A DNA stretch of 64,000 nucleotides from Labilibaculum filiforme (GTDB lineage: Bacteria; Bacteroidota; Bacteroidia; Bacteroidales; Marinifilaceae). The position numbers were made by a program, and so were the translations under genes. The notes under the pieces were generated by a model that saw nothing but the letters and a program-made list of their open reading frames with translations, did no database searches and was not told the origin of the DNA. How positions within the stretch are numbered: position 1 is the stretch's first letter; each line of letters starts with the position of its first letter. The DNA is taken from assembly GCF_002843315.1 (NCBI RefSeq), contig NZ_MVDD01000005.1, positions 124,001 through 188,000 on the forward strand. The letters run 5' to 3'. Positions 10,237 through 49,487 of this stretch are shown here, piece after piece.

Positions 10237-10379
10237 GATAGAATAGTTTTTTTTAATAAAACATTACATCCTGCTTCCAAAAGTTTACAAAACAAAGAAT
10301 TTTAGAGTAGTAAATACTGAACACACACGCAAGTCCAATACATAAACTTCGATTCCCGGAAGCAAAATGATATTAGTTA

Positions 10380-10566
10380 CGACTTGGCAGGTCTCCTGAC
10401 TTATCTCAGTTTTTACAGCCTTCCCCCCTTTACGAGAGTGGCTTGCGGTGTAAAAACCATATTCTGCACATTGCAGAATGAGATTTACAGTAGCGGGTAC
10501 TGTTCCGGTTTCTCACCGGATTCCCTTTTCATTCCCTCCAACGATAGTTCGAGTAGAACACCAAAA
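10380..10566 (-). promoter_or_regulatory. Cobalamin (AdoCbl) riboswitch
   Basis: Reading the minus strand, the B12-box AGTCAGGAGACCTGCC is at 10386-10401. Upstream are the conserved core elements GGGAATCCGGTGAGAAACC and CAGTACCCGCTACTG. This is the canonical order and spacing of the cobalamin riboswitch. It lies in the leader of the BtuB-like receptor gene and presumably lowers expression of the whole uptake operon when adenosylcobalamin is plentiful. Confidence 0.95.
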
Positions 10567-10572
10567 TCGAGA

Positions 10573-10580
10573 CAAATGTA
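10573..10580 (-). promoter_or_regulatory. Bacteroidota -7 promoter element of the cobalamin operon
   Basis: Minus-strand TACATTTG matches the Bacteroidota -7 consensus TAnnTTTG. A start site about 7 nt downstream would fall at the 5' edge of the riboswitch, supporting both calls. No clear -33 TTTG is seen. Confidence 0.65.
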
Positions 10581-10695
10581 TACTGTTTTTTTTAATATCC
10601 TGTTAAAGAAATATTTAAATCATCCTGTTTTTAAACACAAGCCTTACAGAAAATGAATTTTGAAATTTATCTGCCATTATTATTGATTTTCACCC

Positions 10696-39167: not shown

Positions 39168-39617
39168 TTTGATATTCTATGTTTATTTAAGCTTGCATAC
39201 AACTTATAACTAAAGCCATGGCCTTTATTTCATTTTTACTACTTTAAAAAGTGTGTTTATCGTTCCTAATAGATCGGTAATTAACACTAATTATGATGAC
39301 AACACGAAATGTCATATGTAAAAACTCCTCTAAAGTATCAAATTTCAACTAAGATTCATACTGTCAAACTTGCCAACTTGCTTTGTACACATAAAATATA
39401 TTTTAAGCAATTATTATTTGCTTAGTAGGTTAGGGAAATTATTCTGTTTCGCCAAAGAGATCAGTAATCTTTCTGCTAGTCGTTTAAAATAGCAAGCCAA
39501 TACAAGCACTTGTAAAGAATAGCTCTTAAAATAGCTTATGCTGTCGCACTCCTCTTTCCAGCTACATCCCCAAAAAGGGGATTTTTTTGCTCCCTGCAAA
39601 AACAAGAGAGCTCGCGA

Positions 39618-39860
39618 ACATTTGTACATGGCTTGCTTTATCAAAAAAGGGAGCCATCAACATTTGTTCACGGTTTGCTTTACCGAAAAAGGGAGTCATT
39701 AACATTTGTTCACGGTTTGCTTTATCAAAAAAGGGAGCCATTAACATTTGTTCACGGCTTGCTTTACCGAAAAAGGGAGTCATTAACATTTGTTCACGGC
39801 TTGCTTTACCGAAAAAGGGAGTCATTAACATTTGTTCACGGCTTGTTTTATCAAAAAACA
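39618..39860. repeat. 42-bp minisatellite, about six units
   Basis: Units beginning ACATTTGTTCACGG recur at 39618, 39660, 39702, 39744, 39786 and 39828, exactly 42 bp apart. Two alternating sub-types occur (TTATCAAAAAAGGGAGCC and TTACCGAAAAAGGGAGTC). Because 42 is divisible by three, long open frames appear on both strands, but none has a convincing start or protein character. The stretch 39168-39617 before it is AT-rich with no gene seen. Confidence 0.9.
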
Positions 39861-39904
39861 AGAGAATTTCAGAAAGAAAGAAAGAAAGAATCATCCTTTT
39901 TTTT

Positions 39905-39952
39905 CCTTGTTACTTGATACTTGGAACTTGATACTTGTTACTTGATTTACTT
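39905..39952. repeat. ACTTGAT-type heptamer tract
   Basis: CTTGATA, CTTGGAA, CTTGATA and CTTGTTA follow each other at 7-bp period. Equivalent tracts lie at about 40058-40090, 40440-40485, 40838-40863 and 41212-41267, always at the same place in the larger repeat unit, and their length differences account for the variable unit length. Confidence 0.8.
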
Positions 39953-39957
39953 TGAGG

Positions 39958-41440
39958 TTAAATCATTTTGTAGGCTACGCACCCCTCTGCCTGTCGGCAT
40001 CTCCCCTTAAAAAAGGGAGAATTCCAGAAACGAAAGCATCATCTTTTTTTTCTTGAGACTTGGAACTTGGAACTTGGAACTTGGAACTTGACGCCTGATT
40101 TATGAATCGCATTGCAATTTCGTCGCTTGTTGCAACACCTCCTCTATCTAAATTTTTAACTGCGACGATTTTACTTTACATCGCAAATACCTGGGGTGGC
40201 AGTCGCTTCGCTTCTTTACCCCAGGCTATTGGAATTTGAGCCCTTCAGGCTCAACATTTGCAAACAAAATAGAAAGTTCAGAAAGATAGCATCATCTTTT
40301 TTTTCCTTTGTGCTCTTTGGGTTGCCCTTTGATTTACTTTGTGGTAAACTATTTTGTAGGCTACGCACCCCTCTGCCTGTCGGCATCTCCCCTTAAAAAA
40401 GGGAGAATTCCAGAAAGAAAGTATGATCCTTTTTTTTTCTTGATTCTTGTTACTTGTTACTTGTTACTTGATACTTGGAACTTGACGCCTGATTAATGAA
40501 TCGCATTGCAATTTCGTCGCATGTGGGAACGCATCCTTTATCTAAATTTTAACTACTACCAATTCCTTTTACGCACAATAACCTGGGGTGACAGTCGCTT
40601 CGCTCCTTTACCTCAGGCTATTGGAATTTGAGCCCTTCAGGCTCAGCATTTGCAAACAAAATACAAAGTTCAGAAAGATAGCATCATCTTTTTTTTCCTT
40701 TGTGCTCTTTGGGTTGCCCTTTGATTTACTTTGTGGTAAACTATTTTGTAGGCTACGCACCCCTCTGCTTGTCGGCATCTCCCCTTAAAAAAGGGAGAAT
40801 TCCAGAAAGAAAGTATGATCCTTTTTTTTCCTTGATACTTGATACTTGATACTTGTTACTTGACGCCTGATTTATGAATCGCATTACAATTTCGTCGCTT
40901 GGTGCAACACCTCCTCTATCTAAATTTTTAACTGCGACGATTTTACTTTACATCACATATACCTGGGGTGGCAGTCGCTTCGCTTCTTTACCCCAGGCTA
41001 TTGGAATTTGAGCCCTTCAGGCTCAACATTTGCAAACAAAATACAAAGTTCAGAAAGATAGCATCATCTTTTTTTTCCTTTGTGCTCTTTGGGTTGCCCT
41101 TTGATTTACTTTGTGGTAAACTATTTTGTAGCTACGCACCCCTCTGCCTGTCGGCATCTCCCCTTAAAAAAGGGAGAATTCCAGAAAGAAAGTATGATCC
41201 TTTTTTTTCTTGATTCTTGTTACTTGTTACTTGTTACTTGATACTTGATACTTGGAACTTGGAACTTGACGCCTGATTTATGAATTGCATTGCAATTTCG
41301 TCGCATGTGGGAACGCATCCTTTATCTAAATTTTTAACTACTACCAATTCCTTTTACGCACAATAACCTGGGGTGACAGTCGCTTCGCTCCTTTACCTCA
41401 GGCTATTGGAATTTGAGCCCTTCAGGCTCTGTATTCTAAA
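39958..41440. repeat. Composite tandem array of two repeat elements (four units)
   Basis: Four units of ~380-400 bp. Element B (about 65 bp, GCTACGCACCCCTCTGCCTG... to AAGGGAGAATTCC) starts near 39973, 40359, 40751 and 41132. Element A (about 150 bp) begins at ATGAATCGCATTGC... at 40102, 40496, 40874 and 41280. Spacing of element A is 394, 378 and 406 bp, varying through the heptamer tracts. Element A ends in the hairpin GAGCC-CTTCA-GGCTC. No gene is supported here. Confidence 0.9.
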
Positions 41441-41530: not shown

Positions 41531-42658
41531 TTAAAGCACGAGGTTGAATAAATACCCCAAAATAATAATGAATAAAGTGATGATACCAAAGAAAATACCA
41601 ATCAGTTTCCACTTCATTACTTTCTTTAATAAAGTTGCCTCGGGCAATGATAAGCCTACTACTGCCATCATAAAAGCAATGGCGGTTCCTAGTGGCACTC
41701 CTTTTGCAACAAACACTTGAATAACGGGAACTATACCTGCGGCATTTGCATACATAGGAACAGCAAGGATAACCGCTAATGGAACAGCATACCATTTATC
41801 AGCAGATAAAAACTCGGTAAAGAAATTTTCGGGCACATAACCATGCATGGCCGCTCCAATGGCTATTCCAATAATCACGTACAACAATACTTTTCGAACA
41901 ATATCCCATCCTTCTTTAATAATGGAAGGCAGACGATCTAAAAAGGATAATTTTTCAGCGTCCCATTCTTCCTGCTCTTGTATTGCATTATCCTGTATTT
42001 CTCGTACCCAATCGCTTAAGTATTTATCGAGCTTCAGTTTTCCTAATACAAAACCACCCAACATCCCCATTAAAATACCTGTTCCCGCATAAATAACGGT
42101 GGCCTTTACGCCAAATAAGCCCAAAAACATAGCTACAGCTACCTCGTTCACCAAAGGGGAAGTTATTAAATAGGCAAAAGTTACGCCTAAAGGGATACCT
42201 CCTTTTACAAAACCAATAAATAATGGTATGGATGAACAGGAACAAAATGGAGTAACTGCACCAAAAAAAGAGGCGAAGAAATATTCCAATCCATACATTT
42301 TTTTAGTAGTCAGGTAAATCCGTAATCGGTCCACCGGAAAATAAGCATTAACAACTCCCATTAAACTACTAATTATAAATAGCAGAATTACAATTTTTAT
42401 GGTATCGTAAAAAAAGAAGTTAACTGCTGCTCCTAAATGAGATTCAGGATTCAACTTCAACAAATCAAAAGCAAAGGCATCAATGATATGCGGTAAATAG
42501 TGATACAAGGCTATTATAAGCGGTAAAACAACTGCTATGGAAGCAATTAATCGTGCTTTGCTATTCACCTCTTGATTCCTTTCATCAGAATTATCGAGAG
42601 CATAAGCCACACTCTCTGCTTTGTTTCTATTCTTTGTAGGGATGTTCAACTTATCCAT
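41531..42658 (-). CDS. arsP: Permease, ArsP/SO_0444-like
   Basis: A 375-aa inner-membrane protein with about ten helices. It carries the family hallmark TPFCSCSSIPLFIGF, whose cysteines are needed in ArsP for trivalent organoarsenical efflux, and the second symmetrical block YANAAGIVPVIQVFVAKG. Last gene of the ars operon, with an operator-like palindrome (42674-42693) directly upstream, so it may also be transcribed on its own. Substrate could be organoarsenicals or another thiophilic metal. Confidence 0.82.
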   Translation of the reverse strand: MDKLNIPTKNRNKAESVAYALDNSDERNQEVNSKARLIASIAVVLPLIIALYHYLPHIIDAFAFDLLKLNPESHLGAAVNFFFYDTIKIVILLFIISSLMGVVNAYFPVDRLRIYLTTKKMYGLEYFFASFFGAVTPFCSCSSIPLFIGFVKGGIPLGVTFAYLITSPLVNEVAVAMFLGLFGVKATVIYAGTGILMGMLGGFVLGKLKLDKYLSDWVREIQDNAIQEQEEWDAEKLSFLDRLPSIIKEGWDIVRKVLLYVIIGIAIGAAMHGYVPENFFTEFLSADKWYAVPLAVILAVPMYANAAGIVPVIQVFVAKGVPLGTAIAFMMAVVGLSLPEATLLKKVMKWKLIGIFFGIITLFIIILGYLFNLVL

Positions 42659-44607: not shown

Positions 44608-45010
44608 TTTGGTTAAATTGCAATTTCGTCGCGTGGGGCAACACCTCTTCGATCCAAACTTTTACTGGCGACGATTTTACTTTACATCACATATACCCAG
44701 GGTGGCAATCGCTTCGCTCCTTTACCCCAGGCTATTGGAATTTGAGCCCTTCAGGCTCAGCATTTGCAAACAAAATACAAAGTTCAGAAAGAAAGCATCA
44801 TCTTTTTTTTCTTGATACTTGGAACTTGACGCCTGATTTATGAATTACATTGCAATTTCGTCGCTTGTTGGAGCACCTCTTCGATCTAAATTTTTACTGG
44901 CGACGATTTTACTTTACATCACATATACCTGGGGTGGCAATCGCTTCGCTCCTTTGCCCCAGGCTATTGGAATTTGAGCCCTTCAGGCTCTGTATTTGCT
45001 GGAAAAAGAG
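44608..45010. repeat. Two further copies of repeat element A
   Basis: Copies start at about 44608 (5' end degenerate) and 44840, spaced 232 bp, with the hairpin GAGCC-CTTCA-GGCTC in each. They lie between the ars operon and the alpha/beta hydrolase. Nothing else is seen in 44515-45107. Confidence 0.85.
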
Positions 45011-45107
45011 AAGTTCAGAAAGGTAGCCTTAGACTTTTCTTCTTTGATACTTGTTATTTGTTACATGGGACTTACTCCTGAACAAACACGCCTCTGCCAA
45101 TATGTTT

Positions 45108-45896
45108 TTATTTTAATTTATTTAAGAAATCGCTAATAGCTTTCCAATATTCCTCTCCTCCTTGTTGATTGATCCACAAAGCTCTTGAGCCATGATGCCC
45201 AGCTCCTTCGGGAATAAACTGCACTTGGTTATCAAGCAATTTGTGTTTTTGAAGCAGATCGCTAATATTGTTTGCTTCGCTCTTGGAGCTGGTTAGAAAC
45301 ATCGGCTTGTTAAAATCTTCCAAAACATCCACTAAAGACCCTTTGGTTTCGGCCATGTAATTCCCCGGACTAAAGGAGATAACGGCATTTACATCTTCCC
45401 GTTCGGCAGCTAAATACAATGCCAAGGTGGAGGAATACGAAGATCCCCACAGAATTACTTTTGAGGTATATTTTTCAGTCAAGAAATCAAGCGCTGCAAT
45501 AATATCTGCTTCAGCATCGATATAATCTACGCTTTTTGTCATTTTAATAGCTCTTAAGTTAGTTTCGTTTTGAGTATTGCCAATAGGACCACCCGATCGC
45601 TGATCGATAGCCATGCAGTTAAAACCCATCGCATTTAATTGCTCGGCGATGCCCGCATATTCAAATTTATTGAAGCGTGCCTGGTGACAGAGTAAAATGA
45701 ATGGAGCTATCTCGTTAATCTGATACAAATGTCCAGTAATCTTCAAGGAATCTAAAGATTCGAATTCAACCACTTCGGGATATTCTCCACTTGCTTCCGA
45801 TTTAATATCGTGTGCTTCTGATTTTGGACCAATAGGTTTGCAGGATGCAAAAAATAGGCTGTATGCAACTAGTAATAAAAAGATATTTTTCATCAA
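45108..45896 (-). CDS. Alpha/beta hydrolase, lipoprotein
   Basis: A 262-aa protein with lipobox SLFFASC, so envelope-anchored. The alpha/beta hydrolase core shows ILLCHQARFNKFEYAG, the nucleophile elbow VILWGSSYSSTLALY (GSSYS), and the catalytic His region in EGAGHHGSRAL. It resembles dienelactone-hydrolase/acyl-peptidase types; the substrate is unknown. It stands alone between two blocks of repeat element A. Confidence 0.85.
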   Translation of the reverse strand: MMKNIFLLLVAYSLFFASCKPIGPKSEAHDIKSEASGEYPEVVEFESLDSLKITGHLYQINEIAPFILLCHQARFNKFEYAGIAEQLNAMGFNCMAIDQRSGGPIGNTQNETNLRAIKMTKSVDYIDAEADIIAALDFLTEKYTSKVILWGSSYSSTLALYLAAEREDVNAVISFSPGNYMAETKGSLVDVLEDFNKPMFLTSSKSEANNISDLLQKHKLLDNQVQFIPEGAGHHGSRALWINQQGGEEYWKAISDFLNKLK

Positions 45897-46039
45897 TTTT
45901 TAATTTAGTATAGGTACAATACGATGCTTAAAAGTAAAAATACCTTGCTTAAAAACCAAAGAAATAAAGTTGATAATGTTATGCCATTCAGCAATTAACA
46001 CCATCCTATTTTTCAAATCGCACAACCAACCGGAGTCAC

Positions 46040-46282
46040 TTAATGTCCATTTTTTTTCAAATTATATTGTTCTTGATTTAATGGGTTTCCATTGTGGCAA
46101 ATCGGACAATAATGAATGTATCTAGTTTTTATTGGAAAAACGGAAATGAAGAACAGACTTGCAAAAGTGGCATTCTTTTCCAATATCCAGTTGGTGGTAT
46201 TGTTGCAATGGTAACAATGTTCCTGTATATAACATTGTTGCTTTTCTACTACTTTATCGTTGGCTCCGAAAATGAAGATCAT
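46040..46282 (-). CDS. Zinc-ribbon domain protein
   Basis: An 80-aa protein. It opens with IFIFGANDKVVEK, then CYHC (after EH), a hydrophobic stretch FASLFFISVFPIKTRYIHY, and CPIC, giving a C-x2-C...C-x2-C zinc ribbon of the zinc_ribbon_15 type that I recall as 'FIFGTxxK' proteins. A plus-strand frame over the same DNA is its shadow. Function unknown. It is flanked by element-A repeats on the far side of 46456. Confidence 0.72.
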   Translation of the reverse strand: MIFIFGANDKVVEKQQCYIQEHCYHCNNTTNWILEKNATFASLFFISVFPIKTRYIHYCPICHNGNPLNQEQYNLKKNGH

Positions 46283-46455
46283 ATTGCTATTTTAATTAGT
46301 CCCATAAGGGGTTTGGGATAATTTTTACAAGATAATATTTGATTTTAGGAATAAACTAAGTCTTGCAAAAAAAAATTTAATTAGAGTCAATATGTATCCT
46401 GTTTTCTGATTTTATGCGTTATTCATTGATTTAATTATTGTTGACATTGCTATTT

Positions 46456-48103
46456 ATGAATCGCATTGCAATTTCGTCGCGTGGGGCAACACCTCTTCGA
46501 TCCAAACTTTTACTGACGACGATTTTACTTTACATCGCATATACCCGGGGTGGCAATCGCTTCGCTCCTTTACCCCAGGCTATTGGAATTTGAGCCCTTC
46601 AGGCTCTGTATTCAAAAAAAATAGCTTACTCCTTATCTTCTTAATACTTGATACTTAATTTATGAATCGCATTGCAATTTCGTCGCGTGAGGCAACACCT
46701 CTTCGATCTAAATTTTTACTAGCGACGATTTTACTTTACATCACATATATCCGGGGTGGCAGTCACTTCGCTCCTTTACCCAAGGATATTGGAATTTGAG
46801 CCTTTCAGGCTCTGTATTCAAAAAAAATAGCTTACTCCTTATCTTCTTGAGACTTGATACTTAATTTATGAATCGCATTGCAATTTCGTCGCGTGGGGCA
46901 ACACCTCTTCGATCCAAATTTTTACTGGCGACGATTTTACTTTACATCACATATACCCGGGGTGGCAATCGCTTCGCTCCTTTACCCCAGGCTATTGAGA
47001 TTTGAGCCCTTCAGGCTCTGTATTCAAAAAAAATAGCTTACTCCTTATCTTCTTAATACTTGATACTTAATTTATGAATCGCACTGCAATTTCGTCGCTT
47101 GGGGGAACGCATCCTTTATCCAAATTTTTACTGGCGACGATTTTACTTTACATCGCAAATACCTAGGGTGACAATCGCTTCGCTCATTTACCCCAGGCTA
47201 TTGGACTTCGAGCCATTCAGGCTCTGTATTCAAAAAAAATAGCTTACTCCTTATCTTCTTGAGACTTGATACTTAATTTATGAATCGCACTGCAATTTCG
47301 TCGCGTGGGGCAACACCTCTTCGATCCAAATTTTTACTGGCGACGATTTTACTTTACATCGCATATACCCGGGGTGGCAATCGCTTCGCTCCTTTACCCA
47401 AGGATATTGAAATTCGAGCCCTTCAGGCTCAGCATTCTAAAAAAATAGCTTACTCCTTATCTTCTTGAGACTTGATACTTAATTTATGAATTGCACTGCA
47501 ATTTCGTCGCGTGGGGCAACACCTCTTCGATCCAAACTTTTGCTGACGACGATTTTACTTTACATCACATATACCCGGGGTGGCAATCGCTTCGCTCCTT
47601 TACCCAAGGATATTGGAATTTGAGCCTTTCAGGCTCTGTATTCAAAAAAAATAGCTTACTCCTTATCTTCTTGAGACTTGATACTTAATTTATGAATTGC
47701 ACTGCAATTGCGTCGCGTGGGGCAACACCTCTTCGATCTAAATTTTTACTGGCGACGATTTTACTTTACATCACATATACCCGGGGTGGCAATCGCTTCG
47801 CTCCTTTACCCCAGGCTATTGGAATTTGAGCCCTTCAGGCTCAGCATTCTAAAAAAATAGCTTACTCCTTATCTTCTTGAGACTTGACGCCTGATTTATG
47901 AATCGCATTGCAATTTCGTCGCTTGTTGGAGCACCTCTTCGATCTAAATTTTTACTGGCGACGATTTTACTTTACATCACATATACCCGGGGTGGCAGTC
48001 GCTTCGCTCCTTTGCCCCAGGCTATTGGAATTCGAGCCCTTCAGGCTCTGGACTCGCTGGAAAGAGAGAAGTTCAGAAAGCATTATCCTTTTTTCTTTGT
48101 GTA
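46456..48103. repeat. 206-bp tandem repeat array of element A, eight units
   Basis: Units begin at 46456, 46662, 46868, 47074, 47280, 47486, 47692 and 47898, every one exactly 206 bp apart despite many base differences between units. Each unit contains three consecutive hairpins: TCGTCGC...GCGACGA, CCNGGGGT...ACCCCAGG (with TCGCTTCGC inside) and GAGCC-NTTCA-GGCTC. The third hairpin has a variable loop and a constant stem. A spacer ends ...TAGCTTACTCCTTATC. Most units hold an open frame of 45 codons starting at ATG. Confidence 0.93.
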
Positions 48104-48116
48104 CTTTGTGATATTC

Positions 48117-49487
48117 TTAGTTTTCCGTTGTTGGAAACTCCTTCACTAATTTAATATCTTTTAAAAGTGTCTCTTTCTGATCCGATGAAACTGAATTTCG
48201 GTAATCTTTCAAAATAGATTTTAACTCTTTGTAAGTTTGTGTTTCTAAAACAGGAATCTTCTCGGATCCGGTATTCTCTAAAATATCAATTACCTTGTTT
48301 ACCGTCATGCCATTAATATCAAAAGCAGGTTGATATGCCATTTGTTTATCGGTATCGGTGACTAGTTCGGCCACCAAGCCGGCATTTGTTAAATCAAAAA
48401 GAATTTCCCGCACCAAACGAATAGGCATCTGTAATCGGTGAGAGATATCCTGCGAAAGCATAGGAATTTCGTCCTTTTTAAAATTGTGGATAATTAAATG
48501 AAGTACATATAAACTTAGTAAACGCTTGTAGTCGTAGGTTATTTCGGAGGTTTCTGTTTCGAATTCGTAATTTTCAACATTTTGTTCGGCAAAAGAAATT
48601 TCGGCTCCCAATAAAACAACCAACCAACTCATTTGCAACCACATCAAGAATAATGGCAAGGCTGCAAAACTACCATAAACAGCATTGTAGGTAGTTACCA
48701 TTCCCTGAAACTCGATATATAAGATCTGAAACAATTGATAGATTGTACCTGCAATGATACCTGCCAACAAACTAGATTTAAATTTCACATGTGTATTCGG
48801 CATAAACGTATACAGCATGGTAAATAAGGTCCAAACTAGGAAATAAGGTGTCAAATTAATCAGAAAACTAAGATATGGCCCAACGGATTCGAGCAAAGTA
48901 TTCCCTTGAGTTACCTGCTTAATCATGGTTTTTAAAAAAACAGTTGCTCCACTCGAACCAATTAGCAAGATGGGTGCAAAAATCATAATTGCAGTGTAAT
49001 CGCTAAATCTTCGCCCCCAGGTTCTCCCCTTCTTTATTCGCCAAACATCGTTAAACGATTCCTCGATATTCGCCAAGACTTTTAATACCGACCAAAATAA
49101 AATGACAAATCCCAACCCAGCAATTAAGGATCCTTTTGTATTTAGAAGCATTTTATTTGCAAACTCAATCAGCCAATTCAGCACTTCTTCCTGTCCCGAA
49201 AGGTTAGCTATCAGTTCTTTTTCCAATTTCTTTTCCAAATCGAATCCCTTAGCAATTCCGAAACCCATTGCCAACACCGGCACAACCGATAGTACTGAGT
49301 AAAAAGTTAAAGCGGATGCCCGCAATTGGCATTTATCTTCGTAAAATCCTTTAATCGCTAAAAGATAAATTCGTAGTTGTCGAATTAAAAAATAACGAGG
49401 TCCTGATAATTCCTTTAAGCGCATGTTCCACACACCACGACTTAAAAAATTCATTATTATATCGATATAAGTACGAATACTCTTCAT
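48117..49487 (-). CDS. YihY/BrkB family inner-membrane protein
   Basis: A 456-aa protein. Six predicted helices occupy residues ~50-310 with the family block LRASALTFYSVLSVVPVLAMGFG, then YNAVYGSFAALPLFLMWLQMSW. The C-terminal ~130 residues are a soluble extension that looks like a winged helix (LSQDISHRLQMPIRLVREIL...GLVAELV), as in UPF0761-type proteins. Function in the family is unsettled (once called RNase BN in error). The stop is close to the end of the repeat array. Confidence 0.88.
   Translation of the reverse strand: MKSIRTYIDIIMNFLSRGVWNMRLKELSGPRYFLIRQLRIYLLAIKGFYEDKCQLRASALTFYSVLSVVPVLAMGFGIAKGFDLEKKLEKELIANLSGQEEVLNWLIEFANKMLLNTKGSLIAGLGFVILFWSVLKVLANIEESFNDVWRIKKGRTWGRRFSDYTAIMIFAPILLIGSSGATVFLKTMIKQVTQGNTLLESVGPYLSFLINLTPYFLVWTLFTMLYTFMPNTHVKFKSSLLAGIIAGTIYQLFQILYIEFQGMVTTYNAVYGSFAALPLFLMWLQMSWLVVLLGAEISFAEQNVENYEFETETSEITYDYKRLLSLYVLHLIIHNFKKDEIPMLSQDISHRLQMPIRLVREILFDLTNAGLVAELVTDTDKQMAYQPAFDINGMTVNKVIDILENTGSEKIPVLETQTYKELKSILKDYRNSVSSDQKETLLKDIKLVKEFPTTEN

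Follow-up and report, generated by a model that had tools for sequence, protein, structure and literature searches.

A 206-bp tandem array in Labilibaculum filiforme as a probable local amplification of a REP-like palindromic repeat

The tandem array of Labilibaculum filiforme described here is probably a local amplification of a composite palindromic repeat that is REP-like and was probably mobilized by a RAYT; a probability of roughly 0.6 is given to this reading. The array lies in a stretch of 64,000 nucleotides (contig NZ_MVDD01000005.1, positions 124,001 to 188,000), the whole of which was analysed and is called the window below. Comparison of the sequences supports dispersal of the element at unrelated genes, a three-hairpin fold, a polarity towards gene ends, and local amplification with mixing of units. 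The element is a candidate substrate for TnpA_Y1 subclass 1.2, and its polarity towards gene 3' ends is unusual for a repeat. Coordinates of the features are given in Table 1.

Table 1. Features of the repeat arrays and adjoining genes, in window coordinates
Feature	Position	Strand	Remarks
Array 1, four core copies, spacings 392/380/405	39942..41429	+	Copies at 40213-41429; behind ArsP-type permease gene
Predicted permease, 3' end towards array 1	41531..42658	-	ArsP_1, PF03773
Array 2, two core copies, spacing 232	44613..45053	+	Copies at 44719-44990; behind hydrolase-like gene
Hydrolase-like gene, 3' end towards array 2	45108..45896	-	Pfam matches just below curated cut-offs
Main array, eight units, exact 206-bp period	46452..48050	+	Unit starts 46454, 46660, 46866, 47072, 47278, 47484, 47690, 47896
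Hairpin C of unit 3	46886..46934	-	Gene-sense 5' UCGUCGC, 35-nt loop, GCGACGA
Hairpin A of unit 3	46956..46991	-	CCxGGGGU/ACCCCxGG stem around GC-NNN-GC mini-stem
Hairpin B of unit 3	47004..47018	-	GAGCC-UGAAG-GGCUC
BrkB-family membrane protein gene	48117..49487	-	Pfam PF03631; stop codon 65 bp from last model hit of main array

Tandem Repeats Finder describes the main array with 7.8 copies, 92% matches and 0% indels at a period of 206. A scan of the window with a core pattern found eight copies in it with all seven spacings equal, which bears out the invariant period reported in a preliminary description of this DNA. The 14 copies counted there were also recovered, as 8 + 4 + 2 in three arrays, and none was found on the opposite strand anywhere in the window. 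Unit 8 has the core but not the linker common to the others, from which it differs at 29-31 of 46 positions. Units 1-7 vary at 41 columns, namely 9 of 68 in the linker, 2 of 17 in the spacer, 14 of 53 in the hairpin C region and 16 of 68 in the hairpin A-B region; within the main array, variation is no higher in the linker than in the core. A CRISPR array, with its short repeats between unique spacers, was ruled out, as what recurs in units 1-7 is the entire 206-bp unit with its linker. Of 105 informative column pairs, 57 fail the four-gamete test and so cannot be placed on one tree; recent duplication accompanied by exchange among the units would produce this pattern. Recent copying and mixing of whole units, and not a requirement for this length, best accounts for the constant spacing; the mixed units agree with the recent homogenization that had been proposed as one of two explanations.

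On the gene-sense strand, each element of about 150 nt consists of hairpin B, hairpin A and hairpin C, in this order, and in the last unit it is hairpin B that lies nearest the stop codon of the adjacent gene. The spacer between hairpins B and A ends in a near-invariant AATAG (gene-sense). The three loop bases of the GC-NNN-GC mini-stem in hairpin A differ between loci. Hairpin C follows hairpin A at a distance of typically 18-23 nt and mostly has a stem of 7-10 bp and a loop of about 30-39 nt; examples of its stems are UCGUCGCA/UGCGACGA, CCGACGCA/UGCGUCGG, UCGGCGCA/UGCGCCGG and UCCAUCGC/GCGAUGGA. It was present in 148 of 167 copies, compared to 31 of 167 shuffles, using a finder that accepted G.U pairs solely on the gene-sense strand, with single-base shuffles as the control (one of 168 hits did not have enough flank). 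Together with compensatory changes in all three hairpins, this upholds the earlier count of three hairpins per unit.

Stems had been described as conserved while loop bases change. Within the main array this holds for hairpin B, in which the reported CTTCA, TTTCA and ATTCA loops stand between invariant GAGCC/GGCTC arms. It does not hold for the other two hairpins: arms of hairpin A are altered in several units, e.g. ACCCAAGG in units 2, 5 and 6, and those of hairpin C in units 1, 6 and 7. Stem-preserving double changes, which were to be expected of a structured unit, are present between arrays and genomes. In an alignment of 126 distinct copies that was fitted to the structure, and so favours it, 92.8% of cells were paired (82.9% after shuffling), double changes occurred at 13 of 15 pairs (7.2 shuffled), and 184 cells were changed on both sides (58.8 shuffled). 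When the partner was shifted by one, two or three columns, pairing fell to 56.3% or less. The selection of copies left out the sources L014, L154, L182 and L183 and matches above E 1e-9. A MAFFT alignment of 32 rows gave paired cells and a covariation score in the same direction, with the number of pairs with double changes within the range of the shuffles (4 vs 2.9; other strand 3 vs 2.1). Two rows of congener G003 were dropped from A2/A3, as MAFFT misaligned a one-base loop insertion. The three-hairpin structure with compensatory changes is thereby supported between loci.

Mismatches that are G.U on one strand only indicate which strand folds. In hairpins A and B, 74 were G.U on the gene-sense strand and 34 on the reverse (27 loci vs 8, with 4 equal), and among distinct hairpin C stems the numbers were 38 and 16; both kinds of mismatch were counted equally, and the counts are not independent since the copies are related. 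This points to the strand that runs in the direction of the adjoining gene as the one that probably folds. Predicted folding of one unit was unremarkable (z -1.90 as gene-sense RNA, -0.49 as other-strand DNA), so that folding energy does not carry the structural case. A known RNA family was excluded for the arrays, which had no match in Rfam 15; a permissive search gave one irrelevant match outside them (42587-42642). Elsewhere in the window, a Cobalamin riboswitch was identified at 10369-10581 (-) with 91 bits. A sigma-70-like match (TTGCCA or TTGTCA, 18 nt, TAAAGT) occurs in six of the eight units on the gene-sense strand, 46527-47792 (-), as a consensus match and no more. The phylum uses promoters other than the sigma-70-like consensus.

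All three arrays of the window turn their hairpin B end to the stop codon of a minus-strand gene (41531, 45108, 48117). The same polarity was seen at loci taken from the strongest matches listed in the host and its relatives, with open frames of at least 100 codons as gene calls, which is a rough method. The gene on the hairpin B side has its 3' end towards the element in 62 of 76 clusters, in 45 of 58 after homologous neighbour genes were collapsed, and in 12 of 12 clusters of the host genome alone; where that gene lies within 250 bp, the count is 40 of 44. On the opposite side of the element, 39 of 73 genes have the 3' end inward, which is no bias, and replication-strand bias as the cause of the orientation is disfavoured for that reason. 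Between co-directional genes hairpin B is towards the 3' end in 26 cases and towards the 5' end in 7, and 31 clusters lie between convergent genes and 7 between divergent ones. The adjoining genes are varied: 78 clusters fall into 60 groups by the gene on the hairpin B side. These 78 clusters are 83 minus four in the Y1 neighbourhoods of loci L182 and L183 and minus L139:263.

Such a position could also be that of a selected three-hairpin RNA in the 3' UTR, acting as a stability element or as a 3'-UTR small RNA source or sponge, with the copy number of the array tuning the dose. The compensatory changes, the strand asymmetry and the closeness of hairpin B to stop codons all agree with such an RNA, as does the lack of intrinsic-terminator-like sites on either strand of 45900-48300 (0, compared to 2.0 in shuffles), on account of which the hairpins were also rejected as intrinsic terminators. 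Against it stand the many kinds of adjoining genes, the missing Rfam match, a core no better conserved than the linker within the array, and the array's absence behind brkB in several congeners, which argues against an essential role. The signs that agree with it would also be expected of a single-stranded-DNA transposase substrate, and a selected 3' UTR RNA as the whole explanation is considered unlikely. The preliminary description had suggested a structured RNA or a protein-binding array. Between these the apparent gene-sense fold decides only in part, as it fits a transcribed 3'-UTR element and a single-stranded-DNA substrate of a transposase alike.

Related sequence is dispersed in the host genome, with 36 matches on 7 contigs, more than chance would give, and eight of the 12 host clusters hold two or more copies. 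The search of relatives that had been proposed found the same element in congeners and in other genera. Among the 78 clusters in the host and relatives there are 45 with a single copy, 16 with two and 17 with three or more. A model of hairpins A and B had matches in 27 of 56 family genomes including the host, and in 9 of 17 genera. At order level, 49 of 295 genomes including the host had matches, which were not checked singly. Among named genomes, exact-pattern matches were obtained in Labilibaculum, Marinifilum, Ancylomarina and one Sphingobacteriia MAG. A plasmid collection yielded no match, and a literature search of titles and abstracts found no description of this repeat. Array-specific periods, mixed units and a linker conserved as much as the core could all come from plain tandem duplication of neutral DNA with chance palindromes, having neither mobility nor function. 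This explanation is rather improbable, as copies of the core occur beside unrelated genes and in other genera, with changes that preserve the stems and a preference in orientation towards gene ends, and the single-copy clusters are not given by local duplication.

The periods differ from array to array, near 165, 206, 212, 229, 252, 255, 280, 302 and others or mixed, and several arrays contain small indels; spacings in host clusters include 280/280/260/281, 226/213/212/212 and 270/283. The gene neighbourhood of the main array is common to congeners. In the one-contig congener G003, units of about 252 bp stand behind brkB and, past a small open frame, behind a hydrolase gene whose product is 76% identical to that of the window. 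Congener G004 has two 233-bp units behind its hydrolase gene (75% identical to the window's). Directly behind brkB, the model element is present in one of eight congeners and was not found in the other seven, where the available flank was 1479-1494 bp in five loci, 964 bp in one and 235 bp in one. A degenerate hairpin-C-like stretch 3' of brkB in congener G008 (L229) was noticed by eye together with its flank and is possibly the remnant of a lost array. In the host, an array at L014 5782-7148 (contig C29) is without the hairpin A triloop insert and has spacings of 353-354 and 125 bp.

With 233 or about 252 bp at the same two sites in congeners, and other periods and indels elsewhere, the earlier proposal of a constrained length is not supported. 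Where congeners have the same element at the same site with other periods, an exact period does not call for a functional interpretation. Selection for the exact spacing, e.g. by helical phasing of a protein-binding array, would account for seven equal spacings without an indel and is very improbable in view of the range of periods of the same element and of the period at the brkB site of G003. That the units encode a short peptide is scarcely credible: an ATG-started frame exists in all eight units (45 codons in five), but it ends after 30 codons in unit 4 and continues further in units 5 and 8, a shift of the frame was noticed by eye in the G004 copy, and the better-paired strand is the opposite one.

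Further repeats were observed in and around array 1. A different 78-bp repeat (CACCCCTCTGCCTGTCGGCATCTCCCC...) occurs in four copies among its units (39974-41208), and a similar stretch is found in the linker of an array of genome G006 (L037). Heptamer runs of the CTTGATA/CTTGTTA type lie within and beside array 1 (39906-41269). A 42-bp tandem repeat of 5.8 copies (39617-39858) is located within a minus-strand open frame of 110 codons (39562-39894).

The link to transposases comes from repeats that flank Y1 genes. A profile search identified six Y1 genes in the host genome, none of them in the window; a single one shares the contig of the arrays, at a distance of about 150 kb. No tnpA gene lies within the repeated unit or array, by which the element does not qualify as an IS200/IS605 insertion sequence. 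Y1 genes are present in all 10 relatives searched, so presence alone is uninformative. Of 36 Y1 loci in the host and ten relatives, 11 had model matches of 20 bits or more, 18 in all, and four of the six host loci are among them. In 612.8 kb of array loci there were seven matches of 20-27 bits: three fall within an array or right next to it, two are no more than 250 bp from a Y1 gene, another is 1.8 kb from such a gene, and the last lies elsewhere. In the Y1-flanking copies, hairpins A and B are joined by a short spacer and the loop of hairpin B is often UUUCA or CUUCA; the stems are other ones. Among the copies inspected, a third small hairpin upstream of hairpin A, at the place that hairpin C takes in the arrays, was seen by eye in 8 of 11; the flanking copies of L182 and L139 are without hairpin C. 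The three-hairpin forms closest to a Y1 gene lie at about 0.6 kb (L048, with a hairpin-C-like stem recognized by eye) and at 2.1 and 3.7 kb (L183), and the Y1 protein of L048 falls outside the two branches described below. In 11 genomes, among the loci listed, the exact window-type element was not found directly beside a Y1 gene.

A tree was built from the Y1 proteins of 64 of 73 loci, with nine left out that had no extractable protein; from 49 Y1 matches in ten relatives, 30 were taken as loci, plus 5 more. Genes with flanking copies (model hits of at least 20 bits) clustered in the tree, with 7 label changes compared to 15.1 in shuffles (0 of 500 as low). An earlier labelling, before L224-L228 were scored, had shown no clustering (10 changes, 111-117 of 500 shuffles as low). 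Two branches, chosen after the labels were known and the larger with a support of 88, contain 14 flanked genes of 17, vs 3 of 47 others. Loci L222 and L223 had been fetched because of model hits, and the Fisher test was therefore also done without them (12 of 15). Proteins of both flanked branches have the motif Y---Q--HH. At order level, 30 further Y1 loci had no model hit at E 0.1, and two others that were found from the model side did have hits. In a search by structure only, 6 of 41 Y---Q--HH loci had a two-hairpin motif next to them, compared to 0 of 25 other loci; the association therefore covers part of the subclass only. Given the flanking copies, and with the exact form unseen beside a Y1 gene, mobilization of the element in trans by a Y1 transposase is plausible. 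The Y1 link favours a REP-like mobile repeat.

Other repeat families were also noticed at Y1 genes. The host Y1 gene at L044 1283-2348 (contig C2, near 220.5 kb) lies amid another palindromic repeat, partly with a 117-bp period and with copies on both sides. Two more host Y1 genes have their own flanking repeats, hairpins of the GCCGTAGGT type at L042 (C13) and of the CCGCTACGCGG type at L043 (C1). In the order-level genome G145, the 5' part of the Y1-flanking repeat is iterated in a short run (TTATATGCCATCGGTTGC...) at about 2123-2302 of L223.

In the preferred reading, of a REP-like repeat amplified in place, the element is dispersed in Marinifilaceae genomes and, via hairpins A and B and the spacer, is akin to repeats found beside certain Y1 (HUH) transposases, which have a single domain and are of the TnpA subclass 1.2 type. 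A subclass 1.2 TnpA might recognize the folded single strand and move the element to sites just behind genes in one orientation. Units of element plus linker would then have been tandemly duplicated and mixed by gene conversion or unequal crossing-over, a step supported by comparison, and duplication and mixing would give each array its own period. Transcription of the adjoining gene may extend through the array and give the mRNA a structured 3' UTR, which as a side effect might protect or tune it. A bolder version appears doubtful: a class of mobile 3'-UTR riboelements, three-hairpin and strand-specific, spread by subclass 1.2 TnpA in one orientation behind stop codons, in which array copy number tunes the upstream mRNA. 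If true, it would give subclass 1.2 TnpA a substrate, the relevant passages of Quentin 2018 (PMC6006769) reporting no REP for that subclass.

Among known systems, REP/BIME/REPIN sequences with their RAYT (TnpA_REP) come closest. The relevant passages of Di Nocera 2013 (PMC3733652) describe REP/BIME/REPIN as dispersed intergenic palindromes, mostly behind coding regions, with some clusters reiterated together with flanking DNA. The present element is likewise a dispersed, multi-copy, intergenic palindromic repeat, and relatives that share hairpins A and B adjoin Y1 genes. It differs in the three-hairpin unit, in place of a palindrome of 20-40 bp, in that its exact form was not seen directly beside a Y1 gene among the loci listed, in its preferred polarity relative to the upstream gene, and in the foot of the hairpins, where GT[AG]G is absent: the gene-sense consensus of 32 copies, read from the alignment, has AATAG before hairpin A and is variable before hairpin B. 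Unit architecture, the missing GTAG foot and polarity set the element apart from known REPs. As for the transposase, Y---Q--HH is the signature of TnpA_Y1 subclass 1.2, found mostly in Cyanobacteria and Bacteroidetes and generally without typical terminal IS200 structures, according to the relevant passages of PMC6006769. The flanked Y1 proteins of the tree have the same motif. Those passages report canonical REPs for subclasses 2.2, 2.4, 2.5, 2.7 and 2.8, while structures of an atypical kind belong to 2.6 and 3; table row and figures aside, no REP partner of subclass 1.2 is mentioned in them. Tandem arrays are known from Pseudomonas fluorescens SBW25, for which parts of Bertels and Rainey 2011 (PMC3116915) describe REPs regularly spaced at 112 and 72 bp, head to tail as here. 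They have different sequences and alternate between two types, and those parts of the paper give their orientation relative to the genome half, not to the adjoining gene. Since REPs are known, from the portions of PMC3733652 and PMC3116915 considered, mainly behind coding regions and also in regular tandem arrays, the kind of arrangement seen in L. filiforme is a known one.
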